The translations under genes and the position numbers were made by a program. The notes below the pieces were generated by a model. The model made no database searches. It was not told where the DNA came from and saw nothing but the letters and a program-made list of their open reading frames with translations. From positions 372,001-436,000 of the forward strand of contig NC_009051.1 in the NCBI RefSeq assembly GCF_000015825.1: a DNA stretch of 64,000 nucleotides, given 5' to 3'. Shown in pieces: positions 50,357-63,580 of the stretch (position 1 is its first letter; each line of letters starts with the position of its first letter). This DNA comes from Methanoculleus marisnigri JR1 (GTDB lineage: Archaea; Halobacteriota; Methanomicrobia; Methanomicrobiales; Methanoculleaceae).

Positions 50357-51279
50357 GTTCGATACGGCTCCGTGACTTCATCGAGGATCGCGAGGGCTGC
50401 CTCTATGCGGTCTCGAACTACGACAACGCCGAACGGATCGGGTGCATCCTCCGCTACGTCCCCGATCCGGACGGGGAGCGGACGAACCTCGCCGGTCGGC
50501 GATACCATAAATACGATTTTGCCGAGTCTTTCGACTGGATCAGGGCGCACAAGCCGGAGTACCTGGACAGCGTCCACCGGGTGCCCTACTGCGATGTGGC
50601 CCGGGTCTACAAGCCCGAGGAGGAGATCGCCGGCGTGGCGGCCCGGAACAGGCGGGTGGCAAGGCTCCTCGCTCACCTGGATCTCCCGGCGGGCTCGTTC
50701 GGGTGCACGGGTTCGCTCCTCTGCGGCCTCGAGAACGGCGCTTCCGACATCGACCTGGTGGTCTACGGCGACGCCTGGTTCGTCGCGCAGCGCCGGCTTC
50801 GCGACCTCGTGGAGAGGGGGGCGATCCCGGGGATGAGCACCGCGATGTGGCGGAAGGTCTACGACAAGCGGGTGCCCGAGATATCCTTCGACGCCTTCGT
50901 CCTGCATGAGCAGCGGAAGTGGAACCGGGGGGAGTTCGAGGGAACCTACTTCGATCTCCTCTACACCCGGGACTACGGGAATCTGGACGCGATCCCGGCC
51001 GGCGCGGGGAGGGTTCTCGGCCGGGCGACGATCGAGGCGACGGTCACCGGCGCGTCGCTCTCCTTCGACAGCCCGGCGGTCTACGCGGTGGATCACGATG
51101 AGATCTCCCGGATCCTCTCTTTTACCCACACCTACTCGGGCCAGGCGCTCGCGGGGGAGGTCATCGAGGCGAAGGGCGTCGTGGAGGAGCACGGCGACGA
51201 GCGGTGGCTGATCGTCGGGACGACCCGCGAGGCGAAGGGCGAGTACATCGTCTCGAAGACGCTGCTCGAGAGCGTTTAG
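50353..51279 (+). CDS. Archaeal nucleotidyltransferase-domain protein (COG1665-like)
   Basis: 308 residues from the ATG at 50353, coupled to tsaC (ATGA). The frame is open further upstream, but that part overlaps tsaC. A pol-beta-type nucleotidyltransferase motif is at about residues 116-138 (FGCTGSLLCGLENGASDIDLVVYG: GS...DxD), preceded by a 110-residue N-terminal domain (RYHKYDFAESFDWIRAHKPEYLDS) and followed by a strand-rich C-terminal domain. The third acidic residue may be D in ISFDAFVL. Such archaeal proteins are uncharacterised; the target could be RNA or protein. The last bases overlap the Cas4-like gene tail to tail. Confidence 0.8.
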   Translation: MSSIRLRDFIEDREGCLYAVSNYDNAERIGCILRYVPDPDGERTNLAGRRYHKYDFAESFDWIRAHKPEYLDSVHRVPYCDVARVYKPEEEIAGVAARNRRVARLLAHLDLPAGSFGCTGSLLCGLENGASDIDLVVYGDAWFVAQRRLRDLVERGAIPGMSTAMWRKVYDKRVPEISFDAFVLHEQRKWNRGEFEGTYFDLLYTRDYGNLDAIPAGAGRVLGRATIEATVTGASLSFDSPAVYAVDHDEISRILSFTHTYSGQALAGEVIEAKGVVEEHGDERWLIVGTTREAKGEYIVSKTLLESV

Positions 51280-51938
51280 AAGAGGTCGGAGAGCCGGCGG
51301 GGGCCGGCGGTGCACCGTTCGAGGTGCGGGCAGCCCTCGCAGGGCGCCCGGAGGGGCCGGGGCGGGAGTTCGCCCGCGACGACCCGTTTTGCCGCCCGGA
51401 TCGCTTTGATCATCTCCCGCCGGTCGCGGGGCTGCGGCTCGACGTAGCGGCAGACGCCGCTTGCGACGTACTCGACGTAGCCGCCGGCGACGGGGCGGCC
51501 GAGGGTCTCCTTGAGGCAGGCAACGTAGCAGGCGATCCGGAGCCGGTCGGTGTTGTAGACCCCGGCCTTCGGCGCGGCGCTCGACCGGGTGACGGCGAAC
51601 GTGCCGTCCTCGAAGATTTTATCGACTCTTCCGCGGATGCCGAGGGTGTCGGACTCGACGGCGAGGTCGACCTGGACGGGCCGCTCCCATTTGGTCTCGC
51701 TGCAGGCGGCGACGCATTCATCGAAGAGTTCCCGGACGTCTTCCGCTGCTTCGGGGAGGACGCAGAGGATCTCCTGCCAGATCTGCTCCGCCTCGAGGAG
51801 TTCGCCGAGGTGCGTCGAGACCTGTTTGCAGACGGTGTAGCGCGGAGACTCCGGGTGCTCTTCCGAGCGCTCGAAGTAGTAGCGCCGGGGACAGATGTGG
51901 CAGGCGACGACGCCGGATACCGGGATGTAGTCTGTCAT
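51276..51938 (-). CDS. Cas4-like PD-(D/E)XK-family protein, no CRISPR locus nearby
   Basis: 220 residues from the ATG at 51938 (MTDYIPVSGVVACHICPRRYYF). The layout is that of Cas4/DUF83: N-terminal Cys (C13/C16) and a C-terminal triplet C200, C203, C209, which together would hold an Fe-S cluster. The nuclease core reads LGIRGRVDKIFEDGTFAVTRSS (100-120), giving an Asp but no clear E/Q-x-K; T-R occupies the usual place, so catalysis may be lost or altered. QxxxY-like motif: DRLRIACYVACL. It is a stand-alone Cas4-like protein, probably in DNA repair rather than spacer acquisition (inference). Confidence 0.8.
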   Translation of the reverse strand: MTDYIPVSGVVACHICPRRYYFERSEEHPESPRYTVCKQVSTHLGELLEAEQIWQEILCVLPEAAEDVRELFDECVAACSETKWERPVQVDLAVESDTLGIRGRVDKIFEDGTFAVTRSSAAPKAGVYNTDRLRIACYVACLKETLGRPVAGGYVEYVASGVCRYVEPQPRDRREMIKAIRAAKRVVAGELPPRPLRAPCEGCPHLERCTAGPRRLSDLF

Positions 51939-52060
51939 GGATAGCGGGTTCCCGTTTGATGGGAGGTATGTCCTCCCGCTATTTAGCGCCTTACGCTCCG
52001 CACCGACGGCGAGCCGGCCAAGACCAACTCTTATGCCGGAGCGGGTCACAGAAGATGGGT

Positions 52061-52357
52061 ATGGCAAACCGCGAGATATCGGTCAACATCCCCGGCAATC
52101 TCGACCCGGTCTACTCGAACCGCATCCAGATCGCCTACAAGGAGGACGAGTTCACGTTCCTCTTCCTGCACGAGATCCCCGGCATGAACCAGGCGCGGGG
52201 GAAGGCAATCGTCTCGATCAGCCCCCGGCACGCGAAGAACCTGGTGGAGGTGCTGGCGAAGAGCGTCGCCGACTACGAGCAGAAGTTCGGCAAGATAACC
52301 GCCCCGGAGGCCGCCGCGCAGCAGGAGAGCAACGTCACCATCCGGGGGTACTCCTGA
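52061..52357 (+). CDS. DUF3467 family protein
   Basis: 98 residues from the ATG at 52061 (MANREISVNIPG); an ATG six bases earlier is possible. The core NRIQIAYKEDEFTFLFLHEIPGMNQARGKAIVSISPRHAKNLVEVLAKSVADYEQKFG is typical of DUF3467, small proteins found in bacteria and archaea with no assigned role. A CTTATG element near 52029 suggests a short-leader transcript. It sits just before tRNA-Thr. Confidence 0.85.
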   Translation: MANREISVNIPGNLDPVYSNRIQIAYKEDEFTFLFLHEIPGMNQARGKAIVSISPRHAKNLVEVLAKSVADYEQKFGKITAPEAAAQQESNVTIRGYS

Positions 52358-52708: not shown

Positions 52709-53947
52709 TCACTTGAATGGTTCTAAAAGCATTATGTGTCCTTCTTTTCGCACGCAATATCCCTTCTCAACCAGCGCGTCTACAGATATTTCAACATCTT
52801 CCGGATCCATGGCCATTACTTCTACTGCTTCAATTACTGGAATCCAATAGTCCGCTCCGAAGATATCGTAAAGTTTGTAATAGACTTTGCGTGCATCCCC
52901 TGTTATCAGGAACAAATCTGAGATTTTCGCGGGATTGGAAGTAATCTTTTCAGCCTTCCTAAACATTGAAAACCAAAGATCTGTAGCGTACTTTACATCT
53001 GGGGGTTCAATGTCCGGGCTTGCTCGTAATCGAGCATACGAAGAGGCTAGTTTCGGTAAGGCATCTCCAACGTTTTGGTGATATGGCCTCTGACCTGATG
53101 AGTAATATTCCTCACGCAGTTCATAGATTGCATCGTGCATCATAGCCTCAACTTTACCAGTATATTGGGGTTTTAGAAGCAAAGAATCGAGTATATAAGC
53201 AGTAATAACTCCAGATTCTTGGTCTAACAAGGAATAGTAGTCTTTTGAGTGTTTTCGTTCCTTCACGCCTTCAAAATAAATGGGTATGTCCGATACGAGT
53301 TTCTCTGGTTGTAAAATCGCTAAATTGACCTCCCCTTCCGTTTTACTCAAATTTCGTTCTAATTTTGAAATATAATAGTAATAGTCCGATGATGTCTTTC
53401 TGAAATCATCTGGAATCACTTTCAAAGGCTTTCGGAATAGATCCCATTGATAGTTTTTACCGAAGATGGCTGATTTAATGCCTCCAGTGTCATCTTCAAT
53501 CGGAGGAGAAGAGAATGCAAAGAGGGATGAACAGCCCGCAATTTCCTCTACAACCTCATCTTCTCCGGTCAATGGATATGCGAAGTACTCGACAATCTCT
53601 TCAAAATCAAGGATCTTCCTTCTTTGCGCCAGAGGGGTCGGGTCAAATAACTTCCACGAGTCGACTTCCTTTACGTTGATACTTTTCCTGACAGTTCGAG
53701 GTAAGATCACGGTCTTCTCATCTATGACATTGGCTTCAATGAATTGATTTTCAGGAGGTGGATGCCCAGATACGTGGTATATTTCATTTTTGGACGTCTT
53801 TAAGAAGGGCGATGGATTGAGGAAAAAATACTCTCCGTCTTTAGTATCGTATTTTACGAAACCCACGTTTGCGTACTTGTCATTGAAAATGAGTTCTCTC
53901 TCAACAACCGATAGTTCAGAGCCGATGTACCGGTCGGTTAGCGGCAT
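52709..53947 (-). CDS. Protein with MCM-like C-terminal half but no Walker A (island)
   Basis: 412 residues. I see no P-loop. Residues about 245-335 (ITAYILDSLLLKPQYTG...HDAIYELREEYYSS...ALPKLASSYARLRAS...EPPDVKYATDLW) follow the pattern of the MCM helicase AAA lid, where 'YI.YAR....P.L...A...I...Y...R' leads to 'R.LE.LiRL..A.ArLrl...V...D...A..L'. Residues 345-412 look like the MCM winged helix (VIEAVEVMAMDPEDVEISVDALVEKGYCVRKEG). The first 240 residues include TGEDEVVEEIAG, which could be the degenerate start of an AAA core. It may be a mobile-element replication factor derived from MCM, or an accessory partner. Similarity was judged by eye only. Confidence 0.5.
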   Translation of the reverse strand: MPLTDRYIGSELSVVERELIFNDKYANVGFVKYDTKDGEYFFLNPSPFLKTSKNEIYHVSGHPPPENQFIEANVIDEKTVILPRTVRKSINVKEVDSWKLFDPTPLAQRRKILDFEEIVEYFAYPLTGEDEVVEEIAGCSSLFAFSSPPIEDDTGGIKSAIFGKNYQWDLFRKPLKVIPDDFRKTSSDYYYYISKLERNLSKTEGEVNLAILQPEKLVSDIPIYFEGVKERKHSKDYYSLLDQESGVITAYILDSLLLKPQYTGKVEAMMHDAIYELREEYYSSGQRPYHQNVGDALPKLASSYARLRASPDIEPPDVKYATDLWFSMFRKAEKITSNPAKISDLFLITGDARKVYYKLYDIFGADYWIPVIEAVEVMAMDPEDVEISVDALVEKGYCVRKEGHIMLLEPFK

Positions 53948-54097: not shown

Positions 54098-54814
54098 TTA
54101 TGTACGGGATGACCCAAGTTCTCTCTTTATATCTGGCTCTTCCAGAAAGAGCGGCATTGCCTTGATCACCGCATCAAGACCCCCCTTTATGTACAGTAAT
54201 CCGAAGACTGCCTCGACCAGCGTCGATCTATCGTGGTTTTCCTTGTCAATATTCGATCGAGGTTTGTGATCGAAGCCGATGGTGTTCTCGTAAAGCATCC
54301 ATTTTCTTTCAAGCTGGGCCTGATATTTCTTGTCTTTGAAAGGTTGGCCCTTCTGGTCCAGCATAGCCTTTGAGGGGGTGGTGTCGGATGCCCATAGATG
54401 GTGCACTGCAGCCAGAAGTAGGGCGGCATTTCCAAGATAAGCAAGGGATTCAACTTTTCCGGGCAACTTGGAAAATTCATATATTGATTTTCTCAGCTCT
54501 GGATGCCGTGTTTCTGGAAATTCTTTTAGCATATCAGAAAACATGTCTTTCGCGGTTCCATCGACCATTACCCGGAGGATCAGATTGGAATCCTCGAAGT
54601 CGAACTGTAGATCTCTGCGCACCTGAGGAATGATGTGTTGCTGTATGTGGGCAGCTTTTGTTTGAAGTTCTGTAATACCCAAAACCCAGCCATCCAGTTT
54701 TTTCCGCACATTGCGTTCTTCGGGCAGAGCCCTTGCCCTCTCTTCAACTGCTGTTTTTATTTCATCGAGGGTTTCCTCGATGGCTATTGGATGTAAGAAG
54801 AACTCATCCTCCAT
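54098..54814 (-). CDS. Divergent RNase III-like protein (island)
   Basis: 238 residues. Two stretches match the RNase III fold signatures. One is E122-S-L-A-Y-L-G-N-A-A-L (compare E-R-L-E-F-L-G-D-x-x-L), followed by helix LLAAVHHLW. The other is T198-L-V-E201-A-V-F-G-L-L-Y-I-K-G-G-L-D-A (compare D-x-x-E-A-x-x-G-A-x-Y-x-D-G-G). Of the acidic residues that hold the metals in canonical enzymes, the first Glu and last Glu are kept, but the others are A125, N129 and T198. It may therefore bind dsRNA without cutting it, or use altered chemistry. The N-terminal 85 residues are a helical extension. No dsRBD is present. Confidence 0.6.
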   Translation of the reverse strand: MEDEFFLHPIAIEETLDEIKTAVEERARALPEERNVRKKLDGWVLGITELQTKAAHIQQHIIPQVRRDLQFDFEDSNLILRVMVDGTAKDMFSDMLKEFPETRHPELRKSIYEFSKLPGKVESLAYLGNAALLLAAVHHLWASDTTPSKAMLDQKGQPFKDKKYQAQLERKWMLYENTIGFDHKPRSNIDKENHDRSTLVEAVFGLLYIKGGLDAVIKAMPLFLEEPDIKRELGSSRT

Positions 54815-54982: not shown

Positions 54983-55591
54983 TCAAAAAAGCCAGTTCCA
55001 GATTCTCATCCTGTAATGCTTACTTATGCTGATATTGGGATCGCCGTCGAGCATCTTGCTCACCCTCACCTTCATCTTATAGCCCTTTTTGATTTTTAAG
55101 AACGTTTTGCTGAATAACGTGTTGGGGGACATCACCTGGTTGAGGTAGCCGTACTGCTCCTTTATCGATTCCAGTTTCATGGCGGCCGTAATCTCGTCGC
55201 AATCTCTTGCTCCCGTATCCGTGAACGTATGGCAATCCCGTATGAAGTCCGTAAGGATCTTCACTCCCTGCTCGTTCCTATTCAACGTCTCGGTCAGGTT
55301 CAGGATCCTGTCGGAGAATGAGATGACAAATATCAGGAAACCCAGAAATGCAATCACGTTCCTCGTGTCCTGCTGAGCGTGAAAGGGAAGCGACAATGAT
55401 TGCAGGATTGTGGGGTCTGCAATACTCAAAAACGCAATCGATGCCGAGAAGAAGAGAATGGAGAGCGATAGGCCGCTGGAGATCCATTTGTATTTCCTGC
55501 ACTGGTATGAGCAGATCTCCCTGATCAGCCCGGCCTTGTCCGCTAACCTGTTAATCTCGTAAACACAGTCCTCTACAGTTTTCACACCCAT
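54983..55591 (-). CDS. SLATT-like two-TM protein (putative membrane effector)
   Basis: 202 residues. A charged N-terminal helix (1-35) is followed by two TM helices, about 36-57 (WISSGLSLSILFFSASIAFL) and 79-97 (VIAFLGFLIFVISFS), then a long cytoplasmic helical region (98-202; LNLTETLNRNEQGVKILTDFIRD). This size and topology match SLATT domains, two-TM effectors found in nucleotide-signalling defence loci, where they are thought to damage the membrane on activation. No cGAS/DncV-like or SLOG sensor gene is present in the window. It lies 23 bases after a QueC-like fragment on the same strand. Confidence 0.55.
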   Translation of the reverse strand: MGVKTVEDCVYEINRLADKAGLIREICSYQCRKYKWISSGLSLSILFFSASIAFLSIADPTILQSLSLPFHAQQDTRNVIAFLGFLIFVISFSDRILNLTETLNRNEQGVKILTDFIRDCHTFTDTGARDCDEITAAMKLESIKEQYGYLNQVMSPNTLFSKTFLKIKKGYKMKVRVSKMLDGDPNISISKHYRMRIWNWLF

Positions 55592-55614: not shown

Positions 55615-55764
55615 TCACGAAATACGTTCCAGTTCGTTTTTGAGTTCACTCTGTCCTGGATCGACGTAAAGGGGCGTAACGGCAAAGCCTGCCGACAAAA
55701 GATGGTGCAAACAAGCAGTGGAAGCAATACCTCCGCTGTAGAGAAGCAGGCACCGTGTTGACAT
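55615..55764 (-). pseudogene. QueC-like (7-cyano-7-deazaguanine synthase) N-terminal fragment
   Basis: 49 residues from the ATG at 55764 (MSTRCLLLYSGGIAST). The PP-loop SGGIAS and the following ACLHHLLSAGFAVTPLYVDPGQSELKNELERIS match the first ~45 residues of QueC-like enzymes (SGGxDS, then a Y-x-D-x-GQ motif). It then ends at a TGA. Complete QueC proteins are about 220 residues, so this is a truncated gene or a very short derivative. SG-G-I-A-S lacks the usual Asp (SGGLDS). QueC homologues also occur in some anti-phage systems. An ATATATCC box lies about 30 bases upstream. Confidence 0.55.
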
Positions 55765-55860
55765 TGTTGAACCATTTAAAGAAATTAATTGATTGGATAT
55801 ATTCGTTTCGAAACTTCTTTCGTTCCAGATCGTCCCGAAAGTGATTATCTGTTGCATCAG

Positions 55861-60319: not shown

Positions 60320-60445
60320 ACGGAGGGCGTTTCTGGATCGGGCTTCCAGCCCTGATTGCGGGGGTTCAGGCCCCCTCTCCGACCCGATACGATGAGGCCG
60401 AAACATAACAGAGTCATTTTTTTACCCCTCCCCCAAATGGGATGT

Positions 60446-63400
60446 ATGGAACCGTCCCCGGGGATCTACGAGCAGGTCATCAGCGAATACCTTGCATCGA
60501 AACTCTCCGGTCCGGAAAAAGAAGGGAGAGTCTTTAAAGACCCTCTTGCGCGTTTCGATCCCCAGACAGTCCTCTCGCGATATCTCGCGAAGATCCTCAG
60601 AACGGCCCTCCAGTCTGCCGATGAGGCAGGAGCCTCGCTTGAAGAGCAGATTCTGATCTGCAACCGCCTCATCGAACACCTCGGTACCGAACTACGGGAT
60701 AAGACTCTTGAACAGTGTAAGATCACGCCCGAAGCAGAGGTCTTGCTCGCCCTTGTGGAGCGCAATCCCCTCTCTGCGCTTAATATTACTGCACCCACCC
60801 GCCCCGAGACTTCTATCGCGCAGAGTAGCCTCTTCACCGGGTCTCCCGGAGAGCCCGGGCTCGTGGATGAACTCAGGAAGGAGATCCGGACCGCCGATCG
60901 TGTCGACCTCCTCGTATCGTTCATCAAGTGGAGCGGGCTCCGCCTGATTCTCGACGATTTAAAAGAATTTGTCAGGCATGGCAATCTTCGGGTGATCACG
61001 ACCTCGTACACCGGGGCAACCGATATCAAGGCGGTCGAGGCCCTTGCAGCCCTTCGGAACACCACTGTCCGGATATCCTACGATACCGACAGAACCCGGC
61101 TTCACGCGAAGACCTACACATTCCACAGGAACAACGGCTTCTCCACATCCTATATCGGGTCATCTAACCTCTCGAACCCCGCGATAACGAGCGGCCTTGA
61201 GTGGAATGTGAAGGTCACCGAGCAGGACTCATATGATATCATCCAGAGGATCGAGAAGACGTTTGAGACCTACTGGAAAGACCCGGAGTTCATCGAATAC
61301 ACGCCGGAGAGCCGGGAGCGGTTGCAGCGTGCCCTCTCAAAGGAGAGGCGGAGCGAGATTGATCTCCGCCCGATCTTCGATATCAGGCCCTACTATTACC
61401 AGAAAGAGATCCTCGAGCGGCTGAAGGCGGAGCGGGAACTGCACAACAACTACAAGAATCTCATAGTCGCCGCCACCGGGACGGGGAAGACAGTTATATC
61501 TGCGTTTGATTACAAAAGCCTCTTTCAGAGGCCGGGGGAATATCCCCGTCTGCTCTTCGTTGCTCACCGTGAGGAGATCCTGAAACAGAGCATCCAGGTC
61601 TTCCGGGGGGTTCTCAAAGACCAGAACTTCGGGGATCTCCTCGTCGGAGGGAGCGAACCTGCGCAGATCGAGCATCTCTTCACCTCAATCCAGAGTCTGA
61701 ACAGCAGAAACCTCCCGGAGATCACGCCTCCGGACTATTACGACATGGTCATCGTCGACGAGTTCCATCACGCCGCTGCGCCCTCGTACCAGAGGCTGCT
61801 CTCTTACTACACCCCGGGAGTCCTCCTCGGACTCACCGCAACACCGGAACGCACGGACAATCTTGACATCCTCGAGTATTTCAACGAAAAGATCTCTGCT
61901 GAGATCCGGCTTCCTGAGGCAATCAACCGAAAACTGCTCGCCCCATTTCATTACTTCGGTGTCACCGATGTCGTCGACCTCGATACCGTGCCCTGGAAGC
62001 GAGGAACCTATGATCCCGCTGAGATCTCCAGGCTCTACACCGGGAACCAGCAGCGGGCAGACCTGATCATCAGGGCTGTGCAGGACTACACGACCGATCT
62101 CCACGAGATCATCGGGCTCGGGTTCTGCGTCTCTGTTGAGCACGCTGAATACATGGCTGCAGCGTTCCGGGCGGCGGGTGTCCCTGCGGCCTGTCTTCAC
62201 GCCGGAAGTTCACGGGAAGAACGTTCCACCATCCAGAAGCGGCTGGTCGATCGGAAGATCCACTTCATCTTCGTCGTCGACCTCTACAACGAAGGCGTTG
62301 ATATCCCCGAGGTGAACACCATCCTCTTCCTCCGTCCCACCGAGAGCCTCACAGTTTTTATCCAACAATTTGGACGAGGGCTCCGCCTCTCGGACGGGAA
62401 AGAGTGCCTGACGGTCCTTGACTTTGTTGGCAATCACAACAAAAACTTCCCGTTCGGTGAGAGGATTGCAGCGCTTCTCTCTCCTGGCGGGAAAACCCTG
62501 GTAGAACAGGTCTCTCGTGACTCTTATTCGCTTCCGAAGGGCTGTTATATCCACTTCGAGGAGAAGGCCCGGGAGAGGGTTCTTGCAAACATCAGGGCAA
62601 ACATAACGAATCGGGCCACGCTCATCCGCAAGATCCGTTCGTTTGAAGATGAGACCGGCGAACCTCTCACTTTCAAGAAATTCCTCCAGCGTTACAGCCT
62701 GCAGCCTCTTGATATTTACCGGAGGGGCACGTTCTGTTCGTTGGCTGCAGAGGCGAGCGTATACCCTGAAGTTTACGAGGATGAACGCCTCTTCCCCAGG
62801 GCGGCTGCACTCAGGCTGGCGACACTGAATTCCCCGGAAGCAATCCGCTTCATCAGGGCCGTGCTCTCCGACCCTCGCCATCACTCGCCGGCGGCCCTCT
62901 CGGACCGCGAGAAGAACATGCTGGCGCTCTTCTACTACTCGCTCAACGATGGATTTCTTCGTGACGAGAATATGGGTATTGAAGAGATCTTCTCCGATCT
63001 CTTCGCATATGATGAGATCCGGCGTGAGATCTGCGACCTCCTTGAGTATAACGGGGCACATATCGAGTTCCTCCCAAAACCTGTCGATCTTGGTTTCGAG
63101 AACGCCCTCGAACTCCACTCTACGTACACCCGGGCCCAGGCTTTTGCAGCACTCGGCCACTATACCCTGACCCGGAAACCGGCGGGGGGCAGCCGGGAGG
63201 GGGTTGTGTACCTGGAGGATAAGAAGGCCGACGTGTTCCTGGTCACCCTGAATAAGACCGAGGAGCACTACTCGCCCACAACGATGTACAAGGACTACGC
63301 GGTCAACGAGGACCTCTTCCACTGGCAGTCCCAGAGCACCACTTCGGCATCTTCACCAACCGGCCGGCGCTATATCGAGCATGAACGGCGGGGGAGCAGG

Positions 63401-63580
63401 GTCCTTCTCTTCGTCCGCGAGTACAACAGGGTCGACGGCGTCACGCAACCGTATCTCTTCCTCGGCACCGCCCGGTACGTCTCCCACGAGGGGAGCCGGC
63501 CGATGAGCATTACCTGGGAACTCGATGACCCGATGCCGCCGGGCTTCTTCCTGAAAGCGAATAAGATGGTGGTTGGATAA
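60446..63580 (+). CDS. PLD-like nuclease, SF2 helicase and DUF3427 fusion protein
   Basis: 1044 residues from the ATG at 60446 (MEPSPGIYEQVISEYL). A TTTTTTTA element about 28 bases upstream suggests a short-leader start, so the longer frame from 60356 is not used. A phospholipase-D-like domain (about 130-270) has R-L-H-A-K-T-Y and GSSNLS. The helicase core has Walker A AATGTGKT (about 340), DEFHHA (DEAH-like, about 436), LTATPER and QQFGRGLRLSDG (motif VI). The C-terminal ~400 residues match the DUF3427 region. Such proteins are seen near restriction and defence genes and may cut or remodel foreign DNA (inference). Confidence 0.85.
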   Translation: MEPSPGIYEQVISEYLASKLSGPEKEGRVFKDPLARFDPQTVLSRYLAKILRTALQSADEAGASLEEQILICNRLIEHLGTELRDKTLEQCKITPEAEVLLALVERNPLSALNITAPTRPETSIAQSSLFTGSPGEPGLVDELRKEIRTADRVDLLVSFIKWSGLRLILDDLKEFVRHGNLRVITTSYTGATDIKAVEALAALRNTTVRISYDTDRTRLHAKTYTFHRNNGFSTSYIGSSNLSNPAITSGLEWNVKVTEQDSYDIIQRIEKTFETYWKDPEFIEYTPESRERLQRALSKERRSEIDLRPIFDIRPYYYQKEILERLKAERELHNNYKNLIVAATGTGKTVISAFDYKSLFQRPGEYPRLLFVAHREEILKQSIQVFRGVLKDQNFGDLLVGGSEPAQIEHLFTSIQSLNSRNLPEITPPDYYDMVIVDEFHHAAAPSYQRLLSYYTPGVLLGLTATPERTDNLDILEYFNEKISAEIRLPEAINRKLLAPFHYFGVTDVVDLDTVPWKRGTYDPAEISRLYTGNQQRADLIIRAVQDYTTDLHEIIGLGFCVSVEHAEYMAAAFRAAGVPAACLHAGSSREERSTIQKRLVDRKIHFIFVVDLYNEGVDIPEVNTILFLRPTESLTVFIQQFGRGLRLSDGKECLTVLDFVGNHNKNFPFGERIAALLSPGGKTLVEQVSRDSYSLPKGCYIHFEEKARERVLANIRANITNRATLIRKIRSFEDETGEPLTFKKFLQRYSLQPLDIYRRGTFCSLAAEASVYPEVYEDERLFPRAAALRLATLNSPEAIRFIRAVLSDPRHHSPAALSDREKNMLALFYYSLNDGFLRDENMGIEEIFSDLFAYDEIRREICDLLEYNGAHIEFLPKPVDLGFENALELHSTYTRAQAFAALGHYTLTRKPAGGSREGVVYLEDKKADVFLVTLNKTEEHYSPTTMYKDYAVNEDLFHWQSQSTTSASSPTGRRYIEHERRGSRVLLFVREYNRVDGVTQPYLFLGTARYVSHEGSRPMSITWELDDPMPPGFFLKANKMVVG

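Follow-up and report, generated by a model that had tools for sequence, protein, structure and literature searches.

Methanoculleus marisnigri JR1 carries a gene whose product resembles RNase III and lacks several of the acids of the RNase III metal site. The question raised by this locus is whether such a protein still cleaves RNA and, if it does not, what it is kept for. The DNA analysed is a stretch of 64,000 nucleotides, called the window here (contig NC_009051.1, positions 372,001 to 436,000 of the forward strand), and the features below are numbered from its first letter. The evidence favours a folded RNase III-domain protein that has probably given up cleavage and is maintained for some other, non-catalytic function.

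54098–54814 (− strand): probable pseudo-RNase III gene, whole, 238 amino acids; open reading frame with an ATG start
54608–54781 (− strand): N-terminal helical extension, residues 12–69, two long helices (residues 12–29 and 34–69 in the AlphaFold secondary structure), replacing a C-terminal dsRBD
54143–54631 (− strand): RNase III domain, residues ~62–224 (PF00636 at 122–212, profile alignment from ~62, Foldseek)
54425–54451 (− strand): signature helix 1, residues 122–130 (ESLAYLGNA), with E122, A125 and N129
54428–54430 (− strand): codon of N129 (AAT), where Asn replaces the Asp of E. coli D45 and B. subtilis Mini-III D23
54176–54235 (− strand): signature helix 2, residues 194–213, with T198 and the retained acid E201

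Domain layout and fold

A sequence-only reading of this gene had recognised both signature helices of RNase III, and these are confirmed by the PF00636 match and by alignment. The helices read VESLAYLGNAAL (residues 121–132) and STLVEAVFGLLYIKGG (residues 197–212). PF00636 matches residues 122–212 with an E-value of 1.2e-5 and 26.4 bits by hmmscan (Pfam cut-off 27) and scores 28.3 bits, above the cut-off, in a genome search; taken alone, the window protein is borderline at the Pfam cut-off. The same domain is matched by 18 of 22 family members, with a best E-value of 7e-13. A profile of the family compared with the PDB retrieves RNase III, Drosha, and Mini-III chains, and the RNase III alignment begins at about residue 62.

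The AlphaFold model of the window protein, based on a 51-sequence alignment, is all helical with a pLDDT of 89.3 and a pTM of 0.86. Foldseek matches this model to many RNase III domains with a probability of 1.00 and E-values of about 0.008–0.03. The top PDB matches are the RNase III proteins from C. jejuni and A. aeolicus, plant RTL4, and Drosha; mitoribosomal chains are also found, and the Mini-III chain 6tnn_H ranks 38th. An intact paralogue with A/D/T/E at the catalytic positions is encoded in the same genome (L006; G000:C1:1710960–1711637), and its model (pLDDT 92.1) matches the same set of folds. The window protein thus belongs to the RNase III domain superfamily (PF00636) by profile, by both signature helices, and by its all-helical fold. 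The PF00636 E-values, the AlphaFold and Foldseek results, an ortholog with 81% identity, and over 55 sequences in the family place this match above chance. The refuting outcomes named in the sequence-only reading did not materialise for either the fold or the loss of acids. A resemblance of residues 12–124 to DRT5 (E-values 0.002–0.004) was seen in 1 of 22 family members and was taken as chance.

Pfam scans found no dsRBD in the window protein, and its C-terminus lies ~14 residues past the RNase III domain. With a pI of 6.6 vs 8.8 for B. subtilis Mini-III, its RNase III core falls in the neutral to acidic range.

Catalytic positions in the archaeal subfamily

Alignment pairs E. coli E38, E41, D45, D114, and E117 with E122, A125, N129, T198, and E201 of the window protein. 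The four-acid metal site of E. coli (E41, D45, D114, and E117) is therefore represented by A125, N129, T198, and E201, which confirms the three replacements that had been read from the sequence. The meaning of each replacement depends on the family, and residues were tabulated for 59 family members plus members from Methanoperedens, Methanosarcinales, Lokiarchaeota, and Thorarchaeota. Position 125 is Ala in nearly all family members and position 198 is Thr or, rarely, Ser in all members of the intact group. Position 129 is Asp in every family member but the window protein and its 81% identical ortholog, and position 201 is Glu in every member outside a side clade of the Methanoculleus group. 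The string x/A/D/T(or S)/E holds throughout Methanofollis, Methanoculleus clade A, other Methanomicrobiales, and Methanosarcinales, and it also occurs in the Methanoperedens, Lokiarchaeota, and Thorarchaeota members. B. subtilis Mini-III features the same Ala and Thr (LAYIGD, STAFEA). Judged by these residues, the intact archaeal family keeps a predicted two-acid site, D129 and E201, as in Mini-III.

Since Ala125 and Thr198 are the normal state of both the archaeal family and the active Mini-III, they are ancestral, compatible with activity, and alone no argument for inactivity. What sets the window protein apart from the family is N129 alone, which it shares with the 81% identical ortholog in a second genome (G012). 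The earlier proposal that the substituted acids imply a non-catalytic protein therefore holds in part: N129 makes a loss of cleavage probable, but A125 and T198 by themselves do not argue for it. The comparison with homologues that had been proposed for N129 and T198 shows T198 to be conserved but not N129, and the two residues are not a matched set because only N129 departs from the family norm.

The window protein has the traits of the subfamily, which are the N-terminal hairpin and the motifs LA-x-[IL]-G-[DN] and [ST]-x-x-E. This archaeal branch of RNase III with its two-acid site is little described, and it spans methanogens, Methanoperedens, and Asgard archaea.

Comparison with known RNase III proteins

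Mini-III (MrnC, class 4; B. subtilis 4OUN and 6TNN) resembles the window protein in the lack of a dsRBD and in having Ala at the E41 position and Thr at the D114 position. The intact archaeal family additionally shares its Asp and Glu site, with LA[WL]IGD..KGT[LI]VEA compared to LAYIGD..STAFEA. However, where Mini-III has its two acids, Asp23 and Glu106, the window protein has N129 and E201 and the intact archaeal family has Asp and Glu. Mini-III consists of the RNase III domain only, whereas the window protein adds a ~60-residue N-terminal helical hairpin, and its core is neutral to acidic. In overall sequence and fold, Mini-III is not a nearer relative than other RNase III proteins (HHalign 77.7% vs 96.9% for the small archaeal RNase III; 6tnn at rank 38 in Foldseek). 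Membership in class 4 was rejected on the basis of the N-terminal extension, the absence of an Asp/Glu pair in the window protein, and the lack of preferential similarity.

The canonical class 1 RNase III proteins (C. jejuni, A. aeolicus, E. coli) share the domain fold (3o2r, TM 0.69 by target length), the pair of signature helices, and the first and last Glu of the site; in contrast to these, the window protein features no C-terminal dsRBD and three of its four metal ligands are replaced. The closest protein by profile comparison is a small archaeal RNase III that stands alone in these genomes (for example G000:C1:1492444). It retains the Asp and Glu but is 154 amino acids long, lacks the N-terminal hairpin, and carries Glu, not Thr, where E. 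coli has D114 (IAETLEAIIG). The kinetoplastid proteins KREPB4-10 and the mitoribosomal proteins mL44 and mL57 also combine an RNase III fold with lost catalytic acids and serve structural or partner roles; however, they are fused to other domains, act in known complexes, and are likened to the window protein by fold and not by sequence kinship.

Effect of the Asn substitution

The Mini-III chain bound to the 50S subunit (6TNN) differs from the wild type by D23N, which is the position and the change of N129. The Mini-III crystal chain (4OUN) differs from the wild type by E106Q, a substitution that abolishes BsMini-III activity completely (PMC5141509). In E. coli RNase III, D45E/N leaves weak activity in vitro and low binding, and E117K/A/Q leaves no activity with binding retained, as compiled in a review (PMC8708148, Table 1). 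The window protein already has Ala and Thr at two ligand positions, and with Asn at a third a single acidic ligand, E201, is left. Loss of cleavage is consequently the best inference, and the prediction from residues that the window protein does not cut is well supported.

The main reservation comes from another RNase III of the genus, which bears a dsRBD:

G000:C1:346553–347330 (L099 6554–7330; − strand): dsRBD-bearing RNase III with Asn at the D45 position; the other sequences are L137–L148 and L156

This protein has Asn at D45 in 13 of 13 Methanoculleus sequences examined, with the other four acids intact, and its Methanofollis orthologs have Asp. A related pair (L105, L106) has Asn at D114 as well as at D45. 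Asn at the D45 position is, given this conserved protein and as far as residues can tell, no proof of inactivity. It lends some weight, together with the weak in vitro activity of E. coli D45N (PMC8708148), to the idea that N129, E201, and E122 of the window protein still support slow or Mn-dependent cleavage. Both comparison cases keep three acids, however, whereas three of the four ligands of the window protein are non-acidic, and exactly D23N is carried by the Mini-III chain of 6TNN. Weak or altered chemistry is therefore quite unlikely, and a non-cleaving protein is preferred.

Sister clade, selection and distribution

The ortholog in G012 has the same N129 codon, and the open reading frame is intact in both genomes. 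The N129 form is known from these two sequences only. In phylogenetic trees the sister group of the pair is clade B, with 28 sequences drawn from Methanoculleus and close genera. The node that joins them has support values of 97/88 in a tree with outgroups and 99/95 in a thinned tree, although both branches are long and the grouping may reflect long-branch attraction. Clade B keeps D129, its E201 is replaced by R, G, V, W, M, L, Q, or S, and most of its members are without the stretch between the two motifs. The Glu to Gln substitution in L010 is the same change as in the Mini-III structure 4OUN. With N129 in the window pair and E201 missing from clade B, two sister lineages have each dropped a different one of the two remaining acids.

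The window gene and the ortholog L009 give a dN/dS of 0.25 for the whole gene and 0.22 for the RNase III domain (Fisher p = 3e-10); the values for clades A and B are 0.28 and 0.41. The window gene is under purifying selection, and clade B is maintained but relaxed.

A first single-sequence scan of the genome contigs with the window protein found no match, and a profile scan found 37 family loci. The profile search places the family in 32 of the 35 genomes of the genus, the majority of which have a clade B copy, and the N129 form is patchy (2 of 35). No family members were found in the phage records, plasmid records, and viral contigs searched, and mobile or viral carriage of the family was rejected on this basis. 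RNase III had been thought rare in archaea, which does not apply to this lineage: PF00636 is present in 60 of 61 near relatives and in 68 of 197 genomes drawn from the phylum, and the window genome has six RNase III-domain genes.

The window gene has a G+C content of 46.7% vs 62.1% for the window, and its flanks are a DUF3467 gene, which is conserved, and a pair of RibD-like/HD genes. In 19 other Methanoculleus genomes this slot contains no RNase III-like gene, whereas in G012 it holds the ortholog. The patchiness, the AT-rich composition, and this variable slot would fit a recently acquired gene that has no remaining function and is on its way to loss. A relic is nevertheless very unlikely, given the intact reading frames, the shared Asn codon, and a dN/dS significantly below 1.

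Genomic neighbourhood

The gene next to the window gene encodes a SLATT 2TM effector (54983–55591, − strand), and upstream of it lies an 80-residue QueC-like stub (55615–55857, − strand); together they look like the remnant of a larger, CBASS-like operon. At the same slot G032 has QueC-like, TGT-like, CD-NTase-like, HhH/OGG-like, and SLATT genes in a row (L203 4406–8202), which read as type IV CBASS-like. A CD-NTase occurs in only 2 of the 35 genomes of the genus. SLATT persists without it in the window and 9 other genomes with a dN/dS of 0.06–0.19, and is apparently a selected orphan effector.

The window also encodes a 412-residue protein with 41.6% G+C (52709–53947, − strand) that gives a weak MCM AAA-lid match without an ATPase core; it is possibly a truncated or degenerate MCM-like protein, and its gene is missing from the ortholog locus. 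A stand-alone Cas4-like PD-(D/E)XK nuclease (51276–52067, − strand; PF01930, 1.3e-6) is syntenic across Methanoculleus. At a distance of 5.5 kb, a 1074-residue protein with PLD, ResIII helicase, and DUF3427 domains (60356–63580, + strand) matches the PADLOC model for a type IV methyl-directed restriction enzyme at 1.6e-226. In G012, a gene adjoining the ortholog (L038 10788–11918) has a weak AbiEii nucleotidyltransferase match, which would be consistent with a defence or toxin-antitoxin hotspot. In another family of the phylum (G443, L101 4575–8401), a bpMoxR AAA gene and a VWA gene are followed directly, on the same strand, by an intact family member, an arrangement resembling MoxR-vWA ternary conflict systems.

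This setting invites the view that the window gene serves defence, as an accessory gene whose product targets the RNA of phages or plasmids jointly with the adjacent SLATT gene. The SLATT gene and CBASS-like remnant beside it, the restriction-like gene nearby, the AbiEii-like gene at the ortholog, and the bpMoxR-vWA pair before an intact member all point this way. However, SLATT occupies the slot in 10 of the 19 genomes that have no RNase III gene there, and in G012 the ortholog has no SLATT beside it, so the two do not form a unit; no neighbourhood shared across the family clades was found. A role in defence is therefore unlikely, and a SLATT-RNase III operon was ruled out by the ortholog without SLATT and by SLATT alone at the slot elsewhere. 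The ortholog without SLATT and the variation at the slot make the window gene a patchy accessory gene outside any fixed operon. The neighbours of the other clades were taken as synteny (names by reading): in Methanoculleus, clade B is bordered by a DUF1294-like gene/DtxR-like regulator on one side and a UbiA-like gene on the other, and the genes on either side of clade A are geranylgeranyl-reductase-like and ATP-cone genes.

Possible role of the window protein

RNase III domains work as dimers in which the metal site of each subunit cleaves one of the two strands. The subfamily combines an N-terminal helical hairpin with an RNase III domain, no dsRBD, and, in intact members, a reduced Asp and Glu site. 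With Asn in place of Asp the window copy would no longer hold the catalytic metal; dimer formation could persist and, given a preserved RNA face, so could the holding of a helix. The protein is most likely a dimer that engages structured RNA, or that pairs with another RNase III-domain protein, and leaves the RNA uncut. The putative RNA-holding step by itself is doubtful, with the balance slightly against it. The neutral to acidic core does not favour RNA binding, which makes that step uncertain and a role with a protein partner a serious rival. The sequence-only reading had suggested a dsRNA binder or decoy; with this core and no dsRBD, such a function is putative.

Such a partner could be a subunit of RNase III that is still active, perhaps the intact paralogue L006, in which case the dead copy would restrict cutting to one strand or regulate it, by analogy with KREPB and KREN1-3. 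The dimeric action of RNase III domains and the presence of that paralogue in the window genome are in keeping with this, and kinetoplastid editing endonucleases use dead RNase III partners, possibly limiting cuts to one strand and stabilising the active subunit (PMC12936278). The window gene and the paralogue are unlinked, however, and G012, the only other N129 genome, has no intact subfamily paralogue and contains clade B and other RNase III types only. This heterodimer is accordingly improbable, and a non-cleaving RNase III-domain protein with a non-catalytic role is still the preferred reading.

It is a long shot that the two sister lineages of putative pseudoenzymes in the Methanoculleus group regulate or strand-restrict active RNase III proteins, by dimerising with them or by shielding structured RNA; if true, they would be the prokaryotic equivalent of the pseudo-RNase III subunits of kinetoplastids. 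Within one methanogen order the RNase III domain occurs in nearly every member, in several of them in many copies, and sister clades that lack different acids and are yet under selection offer a natural experiment on the function of an RNase III domain without cutting.
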